Shown here piece after piece: positions 8,545-20,823 of a stretch of 41,881 nucleotides of DNA. Position numbers and translations under genes: made by a program. The DNA is from a virus: IMG/VR virus record IMGVR_UViG_3300025282_000081, positions 1-41,881 of that record; one strand, 5' to 3'. Under the pieces are notes generated by a model. That model searched no databases, was not told the DNA's origin, and was given only the letters and a program-made list of their open reading frames with translations. Numbering within the stretch: position 1 is the first letter of the stretch; every line of letters starts with the position of its first letter.

Positions 8545-8820
8545 TTATAATTCTCCTTTTATATATTTTTCTGCTCCACCAAATTCAGGGATCTGTTTAA
8601 ACTTACAGTCCCTCCTCATCTTACCTATAATTTCCATAACATCACTGATACTCCTTTCTTTCATCATCTTGTTGATATATAAACAATTGAATACTGCTGA
8701 TAGTATAGCATACTTCTCAGCCTTGGTAAAACTATCTAAGCTATCTACTACTCTCATCATTCCTTGTGCTACTTTTTTAACATCGACATTAGCCATGTCA
8801 ACTGAAGAAGAATTCTGCAT
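8545..8820 (-). CDS. Small hypothetical protein downstream of RNA polymerase
   Basis: 91 residues, mostly helical, without a recognisable domain. ATG 8820 has an AGGTG ribosome-binding site 5 bases upstream, inside the polymerase 3' end (23-base overlap), so translation is coupled to RNA polymerase. It is unrelated by eye to the T7 host-takeover proteins encoded near this position. Confidence 0.75.
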   Translation of the reverse strand: MQNSSSVDMANVDVKKVAQGMMRVVDSLDSFTKAEKYAILSAVFNCLYINKMMKERSISDVMEIIGKMRRDCKFKQIPEFGGAEKYIKGEL

Positions 8821-11176
8821 CTTTCACCTCGTTAATGTTTAACTTACCGTACTTCGGAATTTCAGGAACAAGCTTTTGTTCCTCTGCAAATTTCTTAAGG
8901 ACATCCTCTTTATAGATTTCAATGAAAGTTGTCCTTAAGTTTTCACTTAACAGCTCCATGTCACAAGCATGAGTACCAAACGAATCGTGAACTACAGAGA
9001 AGCTTTGAATATCAGTATAAGAAAGATTTACAGTTTTCATCAGGTGACAGGCATCCATGCTATGAACGTAGTTAGGAGCTATTCCATTAGTCTGCTTATG
9101 TTTATCTAGTTTATCTCCTACCCCGTGTGCAGAATATAAAGAAGCAACCTTGCCGTTTATAATTGTTCGTATTTCTTTAACTATCGGTCTTAAGTATTTC
9201 TGCTTCACTATAAACCCTGTAGGAACAGTCCAATAGATAGGTTTACTGTCCTTACTTAAGACCCTTGCACATTCCTGTAACCAATCCATACCTTCTCTAG
9301 CTGATACTACAACTTCTCCTATAGCTTCATAAATAATTGTAGCTAAGTATTTACAAAACACCCATAGGTCTTTATCTTTAGAAATTGTAGTAAAAATTAT
9401 TCCTTTATCTAACTGTTTCTTCAGCTCCTCGTATATCTGTTCTCTCATTCCATAAAGAGTAGCACCATAAGGAGTAGTCATAACAGGCCGTTTGACCAGT
9501 GCTCTATTAATATCCAAGTCTGAAACAATCGCGTCAGGATCAGCTCTTACTTTTTCTGCTACCTTAACTTTTACAATTTCATAGATATCTTGAGGACTAT
9601 CAGTCACTGTAAGGTTTACAGCTCTCCCCCCCACTTCATCTCTTAGCATAGCTGAGAAATGCTGAAGACCGTTACAAGAACCGTCTACAGTAACAGGTAA
9701 ATGACTCACAAAATCTCTAGGATTAACCTTGTATTTAACATACTCAATACAAGCCCTTAAAAACTGCCAAGGTTTATCTGCTTCCATCCACCATCTATTA
9801 ATTAGTGGAGCTGTTCCTACCTCAATGATAGCCCAACCATGAAATTCTGCCCATTCTACTCTTTCTTCTAAAGACACCTTATCATGCCCGTAACAATTAG
9901 CTAGATGGACCTGTAACCAAGGTAGTCCTGAGTTCCCTAAGGGTTTGCCAGTAGCGAACTCCAAGAGTCCTCTGGCTGAGTCCTCTCCTTGTGGATTCAG
10001 GAATGCTGTATTAGCATACATCCTTCCCCTGAAGTCTATGGTATGAGGAAAGTAAAAAACCTTCTCATCCTTGAATTTCCTAGTAGTCCACATGAGTTGA
10101 CTGAATTGTATTCTTTTAGTTTTTAACCTGACATTATCTGCATGCATAAGAGAAGCTAACCGTTTCCACTCTATTTGTTCTTCTTTAGTTCCCTTCTTAG
10201 GGTAGGGTTCTGGCATGGTTCTCTCTAGGAACTCGGGAATGACCTTACAGCTTGACCGCGAGTTAAATAGAGTATCCATAATCTCAAAAGTCTTTTTATT
10301 TATTCTCCACCCTGTCTCCTGGACTATATTTACGGCCTTCTTCACCTCTTTCAAGTCTGATTTATCCAACATCTCAAGGTATGAGTGGTCCATAGTTTTC
10401 ACTAAGTTGATATTAGTGTAGGTGTAGTAGCCCCCTGAGTATACTGAATCCCACTTTCTAGGTGGTATCAGGCAAGGCAGCTTGACAGGATTATATAATT
10501 CACAAATAGAATTCTTCTTATCTATCCATTTTAGAGATTCTTCGGTAGCTTCAAGCCAGTAGACGCTCTTCCTCTTTTGACCACTGGTATTATTATACAG
10601 ATCTACCTTAAATAGCTTCGTAGCTTCACATACTAACTCCACCATCATCTGCCCTAACCGGACCTTGTTTCCAGGAAGCCAGTTTTTCCATTCTATTCCA
10701 GCCTTATTAGAAGAGTGGACTAAGACTCTTTTCTGTTTACGATAGTTAGTAGTGCGTTTATTCAAGTCCCTCATAATCACACCGTAAAGGGCAGGGTTGG
10801 AGTCTTTAAAGAATCTGAATCTAGCCTCATCTTCCAAGAAAGACCCCAACTCATTGGCTACCTTTACCAATTTGACAGGGGTAGAGAGGTGATTAACACA
10901 AGCTTTTAGACTAAGGAAGGAGATGACATCACTAGGTAGCTCGAATAATCTCTCTACTGCATCGGTGGGATATTTATAGGGAGTACCATCACTATAATTT
11001 TTCTTTAATTCGTTGACGCGCTTCTCTACTTTAGCTACACCTTTCCTTAAAAACTGGACTCCAGCAGGAGTAGTAGATTCATGTTTACCCTTCTTAGCTT
11101 TTCTATTATCTTCCCTGAAACGCTTTACACCAAGAGCTACCATTTCTGCTTCTAGGTCTTTTTGACGCTGTAGCAT
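8798..11176 (-). CDS. Single-subunit T7-type DNA-directed RNA polymerase
   Basis: The defining transcription enzyme of T7-like phages, 792 aa (T7: 883). Palm and fingers motifs are intact: IDFRGRMYA, VDGSCNGLQHFSAMLRDEVG (catalytic Asp as T7 D537), RPVMTTPYGATLYG (Lys and Tyr as T7 K631 and Y639) and VVHDSFGTHA (second catalytic Asp as T7 D812). The N-terminal promoter-binding domain is shorter and divergent and the specificity-loop region looks short, so T7 promoters are not expected to be recognised. ATG 11176 is preceded by AGGT at 8 bases. Confidence 0.97.
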   Translation of the reverse strand: MLQRQKDLEAEMVALGVKRFREDNRKAKKGKHESTTPAGVQFLRKGVAKVEKRVNELKKNYSDGTPYKYPTDAVERLFELPSDVISFLSLKACVNHLSTPVKLVKVANELGSFLEDEARFRFFKDSNPALYGVIMRDLNKRTTNYRKQKRVLVHSSNKAGIEWKNWLPGNKVRLGQMMVELVCEATKLFKVDLYNNTSGQKRKSVYWLEATEESLKWIDKKNSICELYNPVKLPCLIPPRKWDSVYSGGYYTYTNINLVKTMDHSYLEMLDKSDLKEVKKAVNIVQETGWRINKKTFEIMDTLFNSRSSCKVIPEFLERTMPEPYPKKGTKEEQIEWKRLASLMHADNVRLKTKRIQFSQLMWTTRKFKDEKVFYFPHTIDFRGRMYANTAFLNPQGEDSARGLLEFATGKPLGNSGLPWLQVHLANCYGHDKVSLEERVEWAEFHGWAIIEVGTAPLINRWWMEADKPWQFLRACIEYVKYKVNPRDFVSHLPVTVDGSCNGLQHFSAMLRDEVGGRAVNLTVTDSPQDIYEIVKVKVAEKVRADPDAIVSDLDINRALVKRPVMTTPYGATLYGMREQIYEELKKQLDKGIIFTTISKDKDLWVFCKYLATIIYEAIGEVVVSAREGMDWLQECARVLSKDSKPIYWTVPTGFIVKQKYLRPIVKEIRTIINGKVASLYSAHGVGDKLDKHKQTNGIAPNYVHSMDACHLMKTVNLSYTDIQSFSVVHDSFGTHACDMELLSENLRTTFIEIYKEDVLKKFAEEQKLVPEIPKYGKLNINEVKDAEFFFS

Positions 11177-13185: not shown

Positions 13186-13896
13186 TCATTTTCTCCTTAC
13201 TTGGTGAATAATTTCACTATCACTAAAATCTAATCTCCTCTTGAATGTCTGAGGAGCTTTAGGATTCCCATATCTATCTGTATACATAACTGAAGAAGCC
13301 CCGTAGTTATCAGCTTGGTCTTGGAATTTAGTTAGAGGACATTTTTCAGGAAGAATGACCTTGATACCCTTACCCCTAGCATATCCTATAAGGTACTCCA
13401 TGTTGGCTCTTTGATGCTGCCACTCATCTCCAGCAGCCATATCTACCCCAAAGATAGCTATATCTGTAATATGAGCTTCAACTATAGCTAGAGCTACCAT
13501 GTAAGAGATAGAAGAGCAGTAATAGTGACCCACTTCTCGATCTACTTTCTCAAATGGATAGGCTATAGCTCCTAAAAAGGTTTCTTCCTGTAAATAGACT
13601 TTATGATTCTTACTCTGACACATATCAGGCAACCACTCAGAGTAATAATCTTTATGACGATAGACTCTTCTCTCCAAGCCTTTTCCATCGTAGTGCTCGT
13701 ATAAAGGATTAGCAGTCATTACTTCCCATAAGATTGAGTGATGCATATCAAATAATCTGTTGTATCTCTCATAACCGTTGAGATCCCACGCTAACCCCCA
13801 CTTTTCCCAAGTAGTATTTTCCCAAGGTACATCATCATAAGAAGTTTTAGAAAATCCTACTATTGCTACCTTTTTACCTTTACCTCTTCTACTCAT
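13186..13896 (-). CDS. Rossmann-like phage protein (MptE-like/DUF115-type resemblance)
   Basis: 236 residues from ATG 13896 (overlaps the upstream stop as ATGA; the frame also allows GTG 13908). It shows a pattern I recognise in many phage proteins: VAIVGF near the N-terminus, Pro-Trp and WEKWGLAWDL, FDMHHS, a central YYCSSISYMVALAI, IFGVDMA and then a C-terminal GIKVILPE. This looks like a Rossmann-type fold with a conserved Gly-Val-Asp motif; the resemblance is to MptE-like pyrophosphokinase/DUF115 proteins, but the biochemical role in phages is unknown. It is coupled to the 2OG oxygenase. Confidence 0.75.
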   Translation of the reverse strand: MSRRGKGKKVAIVGFSKTSYDDVPWENTTWEKWGLAWDLNGYERYNRLFDMHHSILWEVMTANPLYEHYDGKGLERRVYRHKDYYSEWLPDMCQSKNHKVYLQEETFLGAIAYPFEKVDREVGHYYCSSISYMVALAIVEAHITDIAIFGVDMAAGDEWQHQRANMEYLIGYARGKGIKVILPEKCPLTKFQDQADNYGASSVMYTDRYGNPKAPQTFKRRLDFSDSEIIHQVRRK

Positions 13897-14426
13897 ACTA
13901 ATCCCCACATTATTAAAGTTTTTCTTACTCCAGAAGTAACCGGAGTCACTCGATGCAACATATCAATAGGAAAAGTAGTCACCATGCCTTTAGTCTTCAT
14001 AACATCTATAACTTTATCTTCATGCTTAAGTTGTAATACTCCTCCTACATAATCACTTGGACTAGAGAGCTGTACTATTCCCACGTTAACTCTAGCCTTC
14101 ATTATCTTATCGCCTGTACCTATATCTCTATGCCAAGTATAATGACTTTTCTCTTCTCCATGATAAACTGTATATTGCATGGATTGAAGAGCATTAAAAG
14201 GTAGAGCACTCTTGAACACCATGATAGCACGGTCAAATAACCAGTGAGTATTCTTTCCAGGATGTATCCACGCTATCTTAGTGTTCCTAACAGCATGATC
14301 TACCATATCACCTTTTATCTTACCTTCTTCTAATATCAGAGCATCGCCATGATCTATAATTTGTTGTACTTCTTCAGGGAGGAATAGATCAAGCCGATGC
14401 TCTATGTGTACTTGTTTCTTTTTCAT
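13893..14426 (-). CDS. 2-oxoglutarate/Fe(II)-dependent dioxygenase
   Basis: A 177-residue double-stranded beta-helix oxygenase. The iron triad is visible as HRD (H99, D101) and the distal H158 in IDMLHRV; R168, ten residues later, is positioned to bind 2-oxoglutarate. The arrangement resembles prolyl-hydroxylase/PKHD-type phage enzymes. Substrate is unknown: it could be protein, a small molecule or a nucleobase. ATG 14426 overlaps the upstream stop by ATGA, and its own stop overlaps the next start, so three genes at 14.8-13.2 kb are coupled. Confidence 0.88.
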   Translation of the reverse strand: MKKKQVHIEHRLDLFLPEEVQQIIDHGDALILEEGKIKGDMVDHAVRNTKIAWIHPGKNTHWLFDRAIMVFKSALPFNALQSMQYTVYHGEEKSHYTWHRDIGTGDKIMKARVNVGIVQLSSPSDYVGGVLQLKHEDKVIDVMKTKGMVTTFPIDMLHRVTPVTSGVRKTLIMWGLV

Positions 14427-15539: not shown

Positions 15540-16229
15540 TTATATAGATTGTACAAAAGTACCATTATTCTTTATTGCCTTACCTTTTGCTCTTAATCCT
15601 ATGATATAGCCTTTATTCTCAGTAAATCTTAAATCGTGTTTATCACCATCCAGGACCGGATAATCAATACCATTTAAATTATAGGTTTTTGGTAGTTCTT
15701 CATTTCTTTTTGTAGTCATAACTACCGATACATTAGCAATCTTATTCTTTAATAAAAACTTAGTTTCCAGGCTATTCAAACCATCATATGAGAATGTTAG
15801 GTTATAGCCTTTATAGCCCTGGTAATCTAATACTCTTTGAAAGTCTTTTGTATAATCATAGGCCTGGTCAAAAGGCTGATCATTCATATCTAAAAAATGC
15901 TTTACTTCTTCAAACCTATCGGATGTACCATTAAAACGATATGCTAGTTTTTTACCTTTTTTATGCGCGGACCTTTTAACTTTCCTTAGTTCTATCTCTA
16001 GATTGTTTATAAAAGTATCATTATCCTGGTATAATAGCTTAGTTCTATTAATCATTGCTTTTTTAGCCATTGGCAGCCTACCACTAGTTTTTAAACAAGT
16101 ATTAAAACAATTATCGCTAAACTTACATAGGTTTTTATTTGGATATAAATACGTTAAAGTATTAATCCAGCCAGGATACTCTTTTTCTGTTTTTTCTGTT
16201 TTTATTGTTTTACTTAATAGAGCACTCAT
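15540..16229 (-). CDS. GP88/DUF7227-type phage protein
   Basis: 229 residues with the signature of a widespread phage and plasmid family of unknown biochemistry: a cysteine cluster C35-X5-C41-X3-C45 followed by LKTSGR, then AYRFNGTSD, a DYTK motif, LTFSYDG, PVLDGDKHDLRF and GLRAKGKA near the C-terminus. The motif series resembles a TIM-barrel-like order, and the Cys cluster could hold a metal or an Fe-S cluster, but that is inference. ATG 16229 overlaps the upstream stop by ATGA. It lies in the first-transcribed block, unlike most replication genes. Confidence 0.8.
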   Translation of the reverse strand: MSALLSKTIKTEKTEKEYPGWINTLTYLYPNKNLCKFSDNCFNTCLKTSGRLPMAKKAMINRTKLLYQDNDTFINNLEIELRKVKRSAHKKGKKLAYRFNGTSDRFEEVKHFLDMNDQPFDQAYDYTKDFQRVLDYQGYKGYNLTFSYDGLNSLETKFLLKNKIANVSVVMTTKRNEELPKTYNLNGIDYPVLDGDKHDLRFTENKGYIIGLRAKGKAIKNNGTFVQSI

Positions 16230-16396
16230 TTAGTTACCTCAGTTATTGTAGGTTTATAATTAATGGTTTCCCAGTTATTATTAAACTCATCCCATGCTTC
16301 ATTTTCATTATTAGCAAGTATAATTACTACGTTATAATAGAAAATACCAATTGCATTATCTTTTCTCATTTTACCTTGTATTTTGTATTGTTTCAT
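16226..16396 (-). CDS. 56-residue small protein
   Basis: A short gene of 56 codons from ATG 16396, preceded by a textbook GGAGGT at about 7 bases. Its stop overlaps the GP88-type start as ATGA. The sequence opens MKQYKIQGKM and has a hydrophobic FYYNVVIILA stretch and an acidic NENEAWDEF segment, like a small beta-alpha protein. No family recognised; the coupling suggests co-expression with the GP88-type protein. Confidence 0.68.
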   Translation of the reverse strand: MKQYKIQGKMRKDNAIGIFYYNVVIILANNENEAWDEFNNNWETINYKPTITEVTK

Positions 16397-16445
16397 TTTG
16401 TTACCTCCATTGATTAATATTAAACTACCATTTACAAACTTATCA

Positions 16446-17848: not shown

Positions 17849-18175
17849 TTAAAGACCAGCGTTTTTACGCTGAGGATTGTGGAATAACGAGGTTTTTTCT
17901 GTCAGGTCAGCTAATGCTGGAAATTCCTGATCAGTGTGGAGTTTTGTTGCTTTTATTAACAGTTCTTCTTCAGTTTCCCTATGGTCTTCATCTGGAATAC
18001 AACAGTCTACAGGGCATACCTCTTGGCAAGCTTCTTCTCCATGAAAACCTACACACTCTGTACAGAGGTCTGCGTCTATTTCATAGAAATCTTCACCTTC
18101 AGAGATGGCTTCATTAGGACACTCTGGTTCACATACACCACAGTTGATACATTCATCAGTAATAAGAGTAGACAT
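17849..18175 (-). CDS. YfhL/Alvin-type 2[4Fe-4S] ferredoxin
   Basis: 108 residues. Cluster-binding cysteines: C9-X2-C12-X2-C15-X3-C19-Pro, then C38-X2-C41-X8-C50-X3-C54-Pro. The eight-residue spacing in the second motif is the hallmark of Allochromatium/YfhL-type low-potential ferredoxins rather than clostridial ones. A 45-residue polar C-terminal tail extends beyond the Fe-S core. All eight ligands are present, so it should bind two clusters and carry single electrons in the cytoplasm. ATG 18175 begins a few bases after the stop of the cNMP-binding gene with an AAGGA site, so the two are co-translated. Its redox partner in the phage or host is unknown. Confidence 0.9.
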   Translation of the reverse strand: MSTLITDECINCGVCEPECPNEAISEGEDFYEIDADLCTECVGFHGEEACQEVCPVDCCIPDEDHRETEEELLIKATKLHTDQEFPALADLTEKTSLFHNPQRKNAGL

Positions 18176-18178
18176 TAA

Positions 18179-18538
18179 TTATTCCTTACTACCAGTAAAC
18201 TTTTCGATTAACTCAAGGGTTCCTCTCAGTTTACTGGAGAGTGCTCTCAGTATAGGTACGAGAGCTTTAGGGTTGTTCTTCATAAACCTAACAGCATCTT
18301 CTTCTTTGAGGACTCGAAGGACCACACGATCACTAACAGCTTTACAGGTAGCAGTTCGTGGTGTCCTTTCGAGCCAACCAATCTCTCCAAAGACTTCATT
18401 TTCTTTAAGAGTAGCAAGATAGCCGTATCCAGCCTTACTGACTTCTACTTCACCTTCATCAATGATGTAAGCTTCAAAACTAAGTTCTCCTTCTTTAAGG
18501 ATTACCTGGTCTTTCTTGAAGTAGACAGTCTTGCTCAT
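18179..18538 (-). CDS. Stand-alone cyclic-nucleotide-binding (CRP-like) domain protein
   Basis: 119 residues consisting only of a CNBD beta-roll plus a terminal helix. The phosphate-binding cassette is visible: FGEIG (E52) and PRTAT (R61, T62), equivalent to the Glu, Arg and Ser contacts of CRP with cAMP. No DNA-binding helix-turn-helix, kinase or channel part follows, so it is a binder without an attached effector. ATG 18538 follows directly the stop of a 31-codon gene. Coupled downstream is the ferredoxin. Likely options: a redox or signalling partner of that ferredoxin, or a sequestering protein for a host cyclic nucleotide; neither is shown by the sequence. Confidence 0.88.
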   Translation of the reverse strand: MSKTVYFKKDQVILKEGELSFEAYIIDEGEVEVSKAGYGYLATLKENEVFGEIGWLERTPRTATCKAVSDRVVLRVLKEEDAVRFMKNNPKALVPILRALSSKLRGTLELIEKFTGSKE

Positions 18539-19161: not shown

Positions 19162-20823
19162 CTAGACCTTAACCCATACATTCTCATCTTCGTGACTCAC
19201 TTCAGCAGTGTTCATAAATGATTTTATATTTTCCTCTAGTTCTTCTACTCTACGGTCATTATAGGCGATAGCTTCATCAGCAGCCATCTGTTCTACCCAG
19301 TAGTTAACTCCCATAGCGAGAACATCTATTCTATCGTCATACTGGAGTGAACCTTTATCTCTGGTAAGACGAGTCATTTGATAAAATAATTGTCTACGAG
19401 GTTCTTCTTTATTCTCCTCGTAGTCTCTTTCAGCTTCAGTTAAACTTATAATCAACCTATGTTGATTCATTATAGGCTCTAAAACATCTATAATTCTTGC
19501 TTCTTTCTGCTTAGAATGTTTAATTTCCTCTACATGACACTGGTGAAACTGGTTTAATACAGGTTTGAACAGCTCTGTATACATACCATCACCAAAATTA
19601 GCCTCTATTTCTATTACATTTACCTTATGAGCTTGTGCTATTAGGGCTAATTTACGTAATGTAGGCTTATCGTAGCCACCTTTCAGTCCACCTATAGCTA
19701 ATACGAAGATTCTACCATTTAATATCTTGGTAACAACGTATCCTGTCTCATCAAGACCTCTACCAGCAGGATCTATGTGCATCGCAGCACCAGTATACTC
19801 GTAATAATCTGTAGAAACCTCGAAAGGCTTATAGAAATAGTCTCCTGCGAGGCCAACCGCAGGTAAATCCATGAGTTCATCACGCGCCCATTGGACTCTA
19901 CCAGGAGATTTTTCAGTATTTAAAGGGATTACAAGTAAATCTCTAAGCTTAAGTGGGTATCTCTGGTCATCTTCACCGGAAGTATCCAGCATAAACTGTA
20001 AGGCAAACCCTGATTTACCATAAGATGCTTCTCTTTCTACTAAATCTAGGTCATCGAACCTGAAAGGGTCTGTAGGCTGTCCTACGGTCTTTTCTAATGT
20101 AGAGATGAACGGAGCTAGCTTAGTCCCATAAAACGTCTTTAAACGGCTCTCAGGCATCCTGGCTGGCCATATACGACACTTATAACCTCTAGTCTGGAGA
20201 TTAGTGTAGAGACTCTCTTCAACTTGAGGTGTCCCTAAGTAAACTATGCGTCCCACTTTTGGCATTACTACAGCATCGAACTCTTTAACTACTTCTCCTA
20301 ACTTATCTCTCATTACCTGAGTAAGAGCATTACTTAGAACTTCAACATCATCAGCAACAATAATATGAGCACGAGAACCTACTATTTGACCTGTGATACC
20401 AACAGACTTAACAGAAGGAGCATGGGAAGCCCTAGAGGGAGCGACATCAAAAGCAACATTAGAACTTCTCTGATCCTCTCTCGCTCTGAGATGTTGGAGG
20501 ATCGGCATCTCATGAATGATTCTTTTAGTAAACGTAGAAAAGTCATCAGACCTCTGTTTAGATGCGGATACTACAAGGAATTTGAGCTGTGGATCACACA
20601 GTAACTTCCATACAACAAAAGCAGAAGTAATCCAAGATTTACCGACTCCTCTAAAGGCCTGGATAATAAGTCTCTTAGGCCCACTTTGGAGATACTCAGC
20701 GATGTCGTATTGTATAGGAGTAGGATCAGGTAAAGCAAGATGCTTCCAAGCGAGATAGAGAAAATTACGGAAATCATCTTTAATTAACTGAAGCTGACTC
20801 TTGTTTTGTTGGTGTTTCGTCAA
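19162..20823 (-). CDS. Terminase large subunit (T7 gp19-like)
   Basis: The packaging ATPase-nuclease, 553 aa. The ATPase domain has Walker A FRGVGKS (residues 57-63) and Walker B HIIVADD (153-159). The C-terminal RNase H-like nuclease shows acidic sites in HIDPAG, IEIEANFGDG and DDRIDVLAMG. The start is TTG 20823: no ATG precedes the conserved N-terminal helix, and AGGA stands 9 bases upstream. It overlaps the small subunit by 44 bases. The T7-like large-terminase type suggests packaging from concatemers with short direct terminal repeats. Confidence 0.95.
   Translation of the reverse strand: MTKHQQNKSQLQLIKDDFRNFLYLAWKHLALPDPTPIQYDIAEYLQSGPKRLIIQAFRGVGKSWITSAFVVWKLLCDPQLKFLVVSASKQRSDDFSTFTKRIIHEMPILQHLRAREDQRSSNVAFDVAPSRASHAPSVKSVGITGQIVGSRAHIIVADDVEVLSNALTQVMRDKLGEVVKEFDAVVMPKVGRIVYLGTPQVEESLYTNLQTRGYKCRIWPARMPESRLKTFYGTKLAPFISTLEKTVGQPTDPFRFDDLDLVEREASYGKSGFALQFMLDTSGEDDQRYPLKLRDLLVIPLNTEKSPGRVQWARDELMDLPAVGLAGDYFYKPFEVSTDYYEYTGAAMHIDPAGRGLDETGYVVTKILNGRIFVLAIGGLKGGYDKPTLRKLALIAQAHKVNVIEIEANFGDGMYTELFKPVLNQFHQCHVEEIKHSKQKEARIIDVLEPIMNQHRLIISLTEAERDYEENKEEPRRQLFYQMTRLTRDKGSLQYDDRIDVLAMGVNYWVEQMAADEAIAYNDRRVEELEENIKSFMNTAEVSHEDENVWVKV

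Follow-up and report, generated by a model that had tools for sequence, protein, structure and literature searches.

A GP88-family protein of a T7-like phage with three conserved cysteines and a predicted radical-SAM-like barrel

The window, i.e., the whole stretch of 41,881 nucleotides analyzed here, is a 41.9-kb record of a T7-like phage that encodes a T7-type RNA polymerase, a family A DNA polymerase, a T7-type helicase-primase, a head-tail connector, and a Gp10A-like capsid protein. The 12 best matches of its terminase were to Rhizobium and Pelagibacter phages and one marine metagenomic phage, with 55 to 57% identity. Two other minus-strand genes of this T7-like phage code for a ribonucleotide reductase with a B12-dependent-type insertion domain (345 to 2318) and a 2OG-Fe(II) oxygenase-like protein (13893 to 14426; PF13640, PHROG 61). 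The gene studied here belongs to the GP88 family and is located on the minus strand between the genes for RNA polymerase (8798 to 11176) and terminase (19162 to 20823). The features considered below are the following, where residue counts refer to a 97-row set of GP88 sequences:

15540..16229, minus strand: GP88-family protein of 229 amino acids with a predicted radical-SAM-like barrel (PF17338, PHROG 1617, AlphaFold2 model, dN/dS)
15624..15656, minus strand: VLDGDKHDLRF (residues 192 to 202); D199 and R201 in 96/97
15846..15857, minus strand: DYTK (residues 125 to 128) at the end of strand 3; D125 and Y126 in 97/97, strand 122 to 127 in the model
15918..15938, minus strand: R98-F-N-G-T-S-D104, directly after strand 2; R98 and D104 in 97/97, strand 94 to 98 in the model
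16095..16127, minus strand: C35-X5-C41-X3-C45, predicted metal or [4Fe-4S] site in the loop that follows strand 1 (conservation and AlphaFold2 model)
16226..16396, minus strand: open reading frame (ORF) of 56 amino acids, a local neighbor and not a conserved partner (no relatives in viral contigs other than copies of this phage)
16236..16240, minus strand: GAGGT, the Shine-Dalgarno-like sequence of the GP88 gene itself, inside the upstream ORF and 6 bases before the GP88 ATG (sequence)
17849..18175, minus strand: YfhL-type dicluster ferredoxin (NF033683, E=5.8e-33)

The GP88 ORF and the 56-amino-acid ORF were read from the sequence exactly as given in a preliminary description of this DNA, and the cysteine stretch, FNGTSD (residues 99 to 104), DYTK, and VLDGDKHDLRF are all present in the translation. 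The same description had labeled the protein as GP88/DUF7227-type. The first part of this label was borne out, as the protein belongs to Pfam family PF17338 (GP88), which it matches over its full length and with all conserved motifs (100.6 bits and E=1.6e-28 at a cut-off of 24.4), and it matched PHROG 1617 with E=1.2e-41; for the second part, no match to DUF7227 (PF23872) was obtained at E up to 1. The entries of PF17338 and PHROG 1617 are both without a stated function, no paper on PF17338, DUF5131, DUF7227, or the GP88 family was found in the open-license literature, and in the one paper there that brings together gp88, radical SAM, and phage, "gp88" is the name of another protein. A comparison with the nearest distinct homologue found (locus L003), which is identical in 199 of 227 residues (88%), gave a dN/dS of 0.043 over 227 codons. 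This low value and the invariance of the family's cysteines show that the 229-codon ORF is a real gene of the GP88 family and not a chance reading frame.

GP88 is a widespread, anonymous gene of phages infecting sea, freshwater, and soil bacteria. Among 50,697 phage records 264 contain it, as do at least 591 IMG/VR stretches. Its carriers include phages of Pelagibacter, Roseobacter, Limnohabitans, rhizobia, and mycobacteria as well as jumbo phages. In the 60 records listed, the gene is annotated as hypothetical protein in 56 cases, as "Gp37/Gp68-like" in two, and as "minor head protein" in one, and in one it carries no annotation. Gp37/Gp68, the name given to two public GP88 genes, is the old name of DUF5131. 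For analysis of conservation, a set was gathered with patterns derived from motifs other than the cysteines, together with seven annotated phage copies. Of the 102 loci matched, six were dropped, namely copies of this phage and L026, which shares its listed match with L025, and the window was added.

In the resulting 97 rows, which include two exact duplicates and some near-identical sequences, C35, C41, and C45 are present throughout, the window included. Nine further residues, L46, G50, R98, D104, Y124, D125, Y126, Y142, and S147, are likewise found in 97/97. The first cysteine gap comprises 5 residues in 5 rows, 6 in 84, 7 in 7, and 9 in 1, and the second gap always comprises 3; thus, the short CX5C spacing shared by the window and L003 occurs in 5/97 rows. 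These two proteins are also set apart from the remaining 63 aligned rows, to which they are 29 to 41% identical. Two further scans yielded 160 loci, of which all except L439, a partial match, were counted as matching (159); 145 were distinct, including two that the 97 rows already contained. The three cysteines were present in 144 of these 145, the exception being L333, which begins inside the gene. As one search pattern in each of these scans contains cysteines, the 76 sequences obtained without a cysteine-containing pattern were counted separately, and all of them but L333 (75) have the three cysteines. In the further set, D199 was conserved in 143/145 and R201 in 121/145. Loss of the cysteines within the family, which would have spoken against the metal or Fe-S center proposed in the preliminary description, was thus not observed.

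Structures were predicted with AlphaFold2 for the window protein, using the alignment of 65 rows, and for the family member L082, using 53 rows from which the window and L003 had been left out. The window model had a pLDDT of 90.8 and a pTM of 0.88, with middling confidence (79 and 66) in the blocks holding the cysteines; the L082 model had a pLDDT of 95.5 and a pTM of 0.91, and its cysteine blocks reached 95 and 91. In both models a strand is followed by the cysteines, long helices, and mostly alternating strands and helices. In the window model the strand covers residues 21 to 26 and the helix residues 38 to 46, so that in terms of predicted secondary structure C41 and C45 are one helical turn apart and C35 lies three residues ahead of the helix; this placement gives no sign of cysteines lying far apart. 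Strands 2 (R98, D104), 3 (D125), and 4 (S147) of the predicted beta/alpha barrel carry invariant residues at their ends or close to them. Radical-SAM enzymes hold their cluster cysteines after strand 1, and in both models the three conserved cysteines have this position. The R98-FNGTSD site presumably corresponds to the place of the GGE motif in these enzymes.

The models were compared with solved structures using VIA-align, which re-aligns the top 1000 chains of Foldseek. For the window model, ranks 1 to 21 were all radical-SAM enzymes (Z 6.0 to 4.7; first unrelated row, 4.6), and for the L082 model ranks 1 to 18 (Z 6.0 to 4.9; first unrelated row, 4.8), where a Z below 8 may reflect a common arrangement and rows less than 1 apart count as tied. 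The lowest radical-SAM rows are therefore tied with the first unrelated ones, which counts against the assignment. The best match of the window model was QueE (5tgs_B; Z 6.0, rmsd 4.9, 161 residues aligned). The L082 model matched EpeE (8ai4_B; Z 6.0, rmsd 4.4, 154 aligned), PFL-activase (8fo0; Z 5.9, rmsd 4.4, 167 aligned), RlmN (4pl2_A; Z 5.8, rmsd 4.3, 164 aligned), viperin (5vsl_B; Z 5.8, rmsd 4.0, 151 aligned), and spore photoproduct lyase (SPL; 4fhc; Z 5.7, rmsd 4.5, 170 aligned). Foldseek alone gave weak matches to generic barrels for the window model, and generic barrels plus viperin at E 0.56 and above for the L082 model. In a search of viral models, the named best matches were GP88 proteins, and three proteins named radical SAM appeared far down the list shown, with E above 1. 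The comparison with radical-SAM and TIM-barrel enzymes suggested in the preliminary description thus ranked radical-SAM enzymes best for both models, at a Z of about 6. We find the radical-SAM assignment persuasive, since one superfamily tops both lists and the cysteines lie where this superfamily holds its cluster; the predicted likeness to a barrel of this kind is weak in absolute terms. The proposed metal or Fe-S center gains support as a predicted site from the conservation of the cysteines and their placement in the model.

Sequence searches gave no direct link to radical-SAM enzymes. None of 65 GP88 members matched PF04055 (radical SAM) at E up to 1, a search of the PDB with the GP88 sequence gave nothing under E=0.03, and the window protein had no match to DUF5131 (PF07505). 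Among the 65 members, L082 was the single one to match DUF5131, with E=0.0018 and 18.3 bits, below the cut-off of 28.9. When 199 genomes were searched with the PF17338 profile, three matched (G001, L130, and L131). L131 is a DUF5131 protein whose gene adjoins a TcmP gene; it scored 316.7 bits to DUF5131. Its GP88 score of 24.3 bits narrowly missed the cut-off of 24.4, and with TIGR04471, radical SAM mobile pair protein A, it reached 68 bits (6.4e-19), far below the cut-off of 355. The DUF5131-like L104 reached only 17.5 bits to PF04055 at a cut-off of 29.5. L130 matched both the DUF7227 and the GP88 Pfam models over their cut-offs and was the sole link seen between these two models. It is encoded by a chromosomal open frame of 617 codons (L130:487-2337) with a long C-terminal part, which by eye resembles ParB. 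A search for DUF7227 in 150 genomes gave no match, and none was obtained for the controls either.

For a comparison of families with HMMER, filters were switched off and E values up to 10 were accepted. Under these settings the GP88 profile matched 9 of 24 DUF5131 sequences versus 3 of 480 of their shuffles. Among SPL-like sequences it matched 1 of 25, compared to 1 of 500 shuffled versions, and none of 25 dihydroorotate dehydrogenases was matched. With the DUF5131 profile, 20 of 65 GP88 sequences were matched versus 17 of 1300 shuffled ones; L082 alone scored clearly higher than the latter, and most single matches between the two families scored near shuffled sequences. Alignment of the GP88 and DUF5131 profiles with hhalign gave scores of 35.7, 31.6, and, with larger sets, 25.8 (probabilities of 38, 26, and 7%), with the strand motifs in register. 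The maxima of column-shuffled controls were 20.9 (30 shuffles; real score 31.6) and 23.0 (100 shuffles; real score 25.8), and dihydroorotate dehydrogenase, used as a TIM-barrel control, scored 11. DUF5131 scored 37 with an SPL-like radical-SAM set, and GP88 gave no signal with the SPL-like profile (14.9; shuffled maximum, 16.0). Because of the low probabilities, the matches below cut-offs, and the missing direct signal between GP88 and SPL, the sequence evidence forms a weak chain and not a proof.

These data bear on the possibility that GP88 has no relationship to radical SAM and is an ordinary metalloprotein with a TIM barrel, the ranking being a by-product of this common fold. The Z scores under 8 for both models and the best Foldseek matches, which were chitinase-like proteins, thiamin phosphate synthase, and other barrels, are in line with such a protein, whereas the unbroken run of radical-SAM enzymes at ranks 1 to 21 and 1 to 18 for two models, the position of the cysteines, and the DUF5131 link all agree with radical SAM, so that we regard an ordinary TIM barrel as improbable.

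The preliminary description had also coupled GP88 to the 56-amino-acid ORF. This ORF is preceded by GGAGGT at 16403 to 16408, 6 bases before its ATG, and overlaps GP88 as ATGA (16226 to 16229). The signals were thus correctly described, and the idea of a conserved partner failed: at the corresponding place L003, with its 88% identical GP88, has a different ORF of 72 amino acids, and in viral contigs relatives of the 56-amino-acid protein occurred only in copies of the same phage. In a tblastn search against phages the best match, to Aeromonas phage ORF3, had E=0.05. Conservation next to family members was checked in 91 loci in which GP88 is preceded by 250 nt or more, 81 of which contained a total of 135 ORFs ending near the GP88 start; the 56-amino-acid protein matched its own copy with E=4e-38, and the next best match had E=0.53. 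It was absent from the other GP88 loci examined, and among 37,972 six-frame ORFs from 440 loci, at E up to 0.01, its sole match apart from copies of this phage was L014, the Aeromonas locus of the weak tblastn match. The 56-amino-acid ORF was therefore rejected as a conserved partner. A 4-nt overlap with an upstream ORF occurs in 15 other GP88 loci, which argues for ordinary packing, and GP88 need not depend on coupling, since it has its own GAGGT six bases before its ATG. That the two genes form a module of enzyme and partner or toxin and antitoxin, as the ATGA overlap and the good Shine-Dalgarno sequence might suggest, is highly improbable in view of the different ORF in L003, the single own match among the 135 ORFs, and the frequency of such overlaps.

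In 13 of the 91 loci, from one contig group (L036-L057), another family of small ORFs ends just upstream of GP88; by phmmer it is unrelated to the 56-amino-acid protein. When ORFs overlapped by longer ones were left out, no cluster of neighbors occurred in more than 15 of 97 loci, and no dedicated GP88 partner was found among the neighbor loci examined. In L003, L007, L015, and L022, GP88 has a gene for a Dcm-type cytosine methylase downstream of it; with 4/97 loci, these are too few to argue from. In the PADLOC defense library, six families matched one or two of 65 GP88 members, with a best E of 0.0044.

The ferredoxin of this phage had been mentioned in connection with the putative Fe-S center. 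It was matched over nearly its whole length, tail included, by 30 viral loci (L182-L211), three of which are copies of this phage. GP88 was present in 2 of 80 viral ferredoxin loci, 37 of which reach at least 3 kb past the ferredoxin, and both were copies of this phage. L194 and L196 represent one phage (99.6% identical over 5171 nt) with a terminase 96% identical to that of the window; it has kept the ferredoxin, and no GP88 gene is present in the 3.8 and 2.8 kb following it. These results speak against a special link between GP88 and this ferredoxin, which may still serve as an electron donor for GP88. The ferredoxin gene adjoins a gene for a single-domain cyclic-nucleotide-binding protein (18179 to 18538, minus strand), relatives of which occur in L195, L200, and L201.

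GP88 proteins are strongly basic. Their median pI is 9.7, and 95/97 have a pI above 9, where the rows are related and hence not independent, compared to 30/82 neighboring ORFs (150 to 320 amino acids, with a relative at another locus) and 17/38 DUF5131 proteins. In 74 of 91 loci GP88 was more basic than the median neighbor. K10, K13, R98, K128, R132, R201, and K215 are each conserved in 90 to 97 of 97 rows. The positive charge and the conserved lysines and arginines point to a nucleic acid or nucleotide as target, and we would guess that the substrate is of this kind. With respect to genome position, GP88 lies within 2 kb of the record end in 12 of 28 nonmycobacterial rows (two duplicate pairs among the 12) and about 1.5 kb from the right end in 32 mycobacteriophage rows, both counted in the same 60 listed records; it lies away from the ends in HTVC023P, DC31, Sansa, XacN1, and Tunturi_5, among others. 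In T7-like genomes and cluster A phages the ends are early regions, and record ends can be arbitrary. The position in T7-like and mycobacteriophage genomes suggests that GP88 often acts early in infection.

Taken together, GP88 is probably a small, noncanonical radical-SAM-like Fe-S enzyme whose target may well be a nucleic acid or nucleotide and which would often be active early during infection. In such an enzyme, C35, C41, and C45 would hold three irons of a [4Fe-4S] cluster, and SAM would bind the fourth. Upon reduction by any available low-potential ferredoxin or flavodoxin, SAM would be cleaved to the 5'-deoxyadenosyl radical, which, judging from the charge and the conserved lysines and arginines, would act on a nucleic acid or nucleotide. 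The gene position would fit a frequent role early in infection, in takeover or in protection against defense. Alternatively, the radical-SAM fold might carry a structural or sensing Fe-S cluster or a zinc site, SAM remaining uncleaved and the protein being a nucleic-acid binder. The noncanonical spacing, the lack of a GGE-like sequence, the strong basicity, and the absence of a PF04055 match are in agreement with such a binder, which we nevertheless consider unlikely, since residues at the ends of strands 2 to 4 (R98, D104, Y124, D125, Y126, Y142, and S147) are as invariant as the cysteines, suggesting an active site rather than a stabilizer of the fold. If GP88 is indeed a radical-SAM enzyme, an anonymous phage gene is opened to direct biochemical test, and the mycobacteriophages among its carriers can be propagated on a laboratory host.

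The canonical CX3CX2C spacing is not present in GP88, with its first gap of 5, 6, 7, or 9 and its second gap of 3. Accepted exceptions with other spacings are the radical-SAM enzymes HmdB (CX5CX2C), QueE (CX14CX2C), ThiC (CX2CX4C), and PhnJ (PMC4389238). C-X5-9-C-X3-C does not figure among these spacings. As the canonical spacing is missing and accepted exceptions exist, we would describe GP88 as working like a radical-SAM enzyme without filing it as a canonical member.

A broader and more doubtful proposal is that GP88, DUF5131, and DUF7227 form an unrecognized clan of radical-SAM enzymes of mobile elements in which the cysteine spacing has shifted. Within it, GP88 would perhaps be the branch that serves phages in counter-defense or takeover, as an enzyme chemically editing nucleic acid or nucleotides when infection starts. 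DUF5131 resembles GP88 in having a three-cysteine stretch followed by strand motifs that hhalign placed in register, but most DUF5131 proteins seen have CX6CX2CY, their conserved residues are other than those of GP88, and the statistical link is weak. For DUF7227, L130 carries CX3CX5C and matches both models, whereas the window protein has no DUF7227 match. Compared to QueE, viperin, PFL-activating enzyme, and spore photoproduct lyase, GP88 has C-X5-9-C-X3-C instead of CX3CX2C, and no direct sequence similarity to them was found; these four were nevertheless among the best structural matches, and the predicted location of the GP88 cysteines after strand 1 is the same as in these enzymes.
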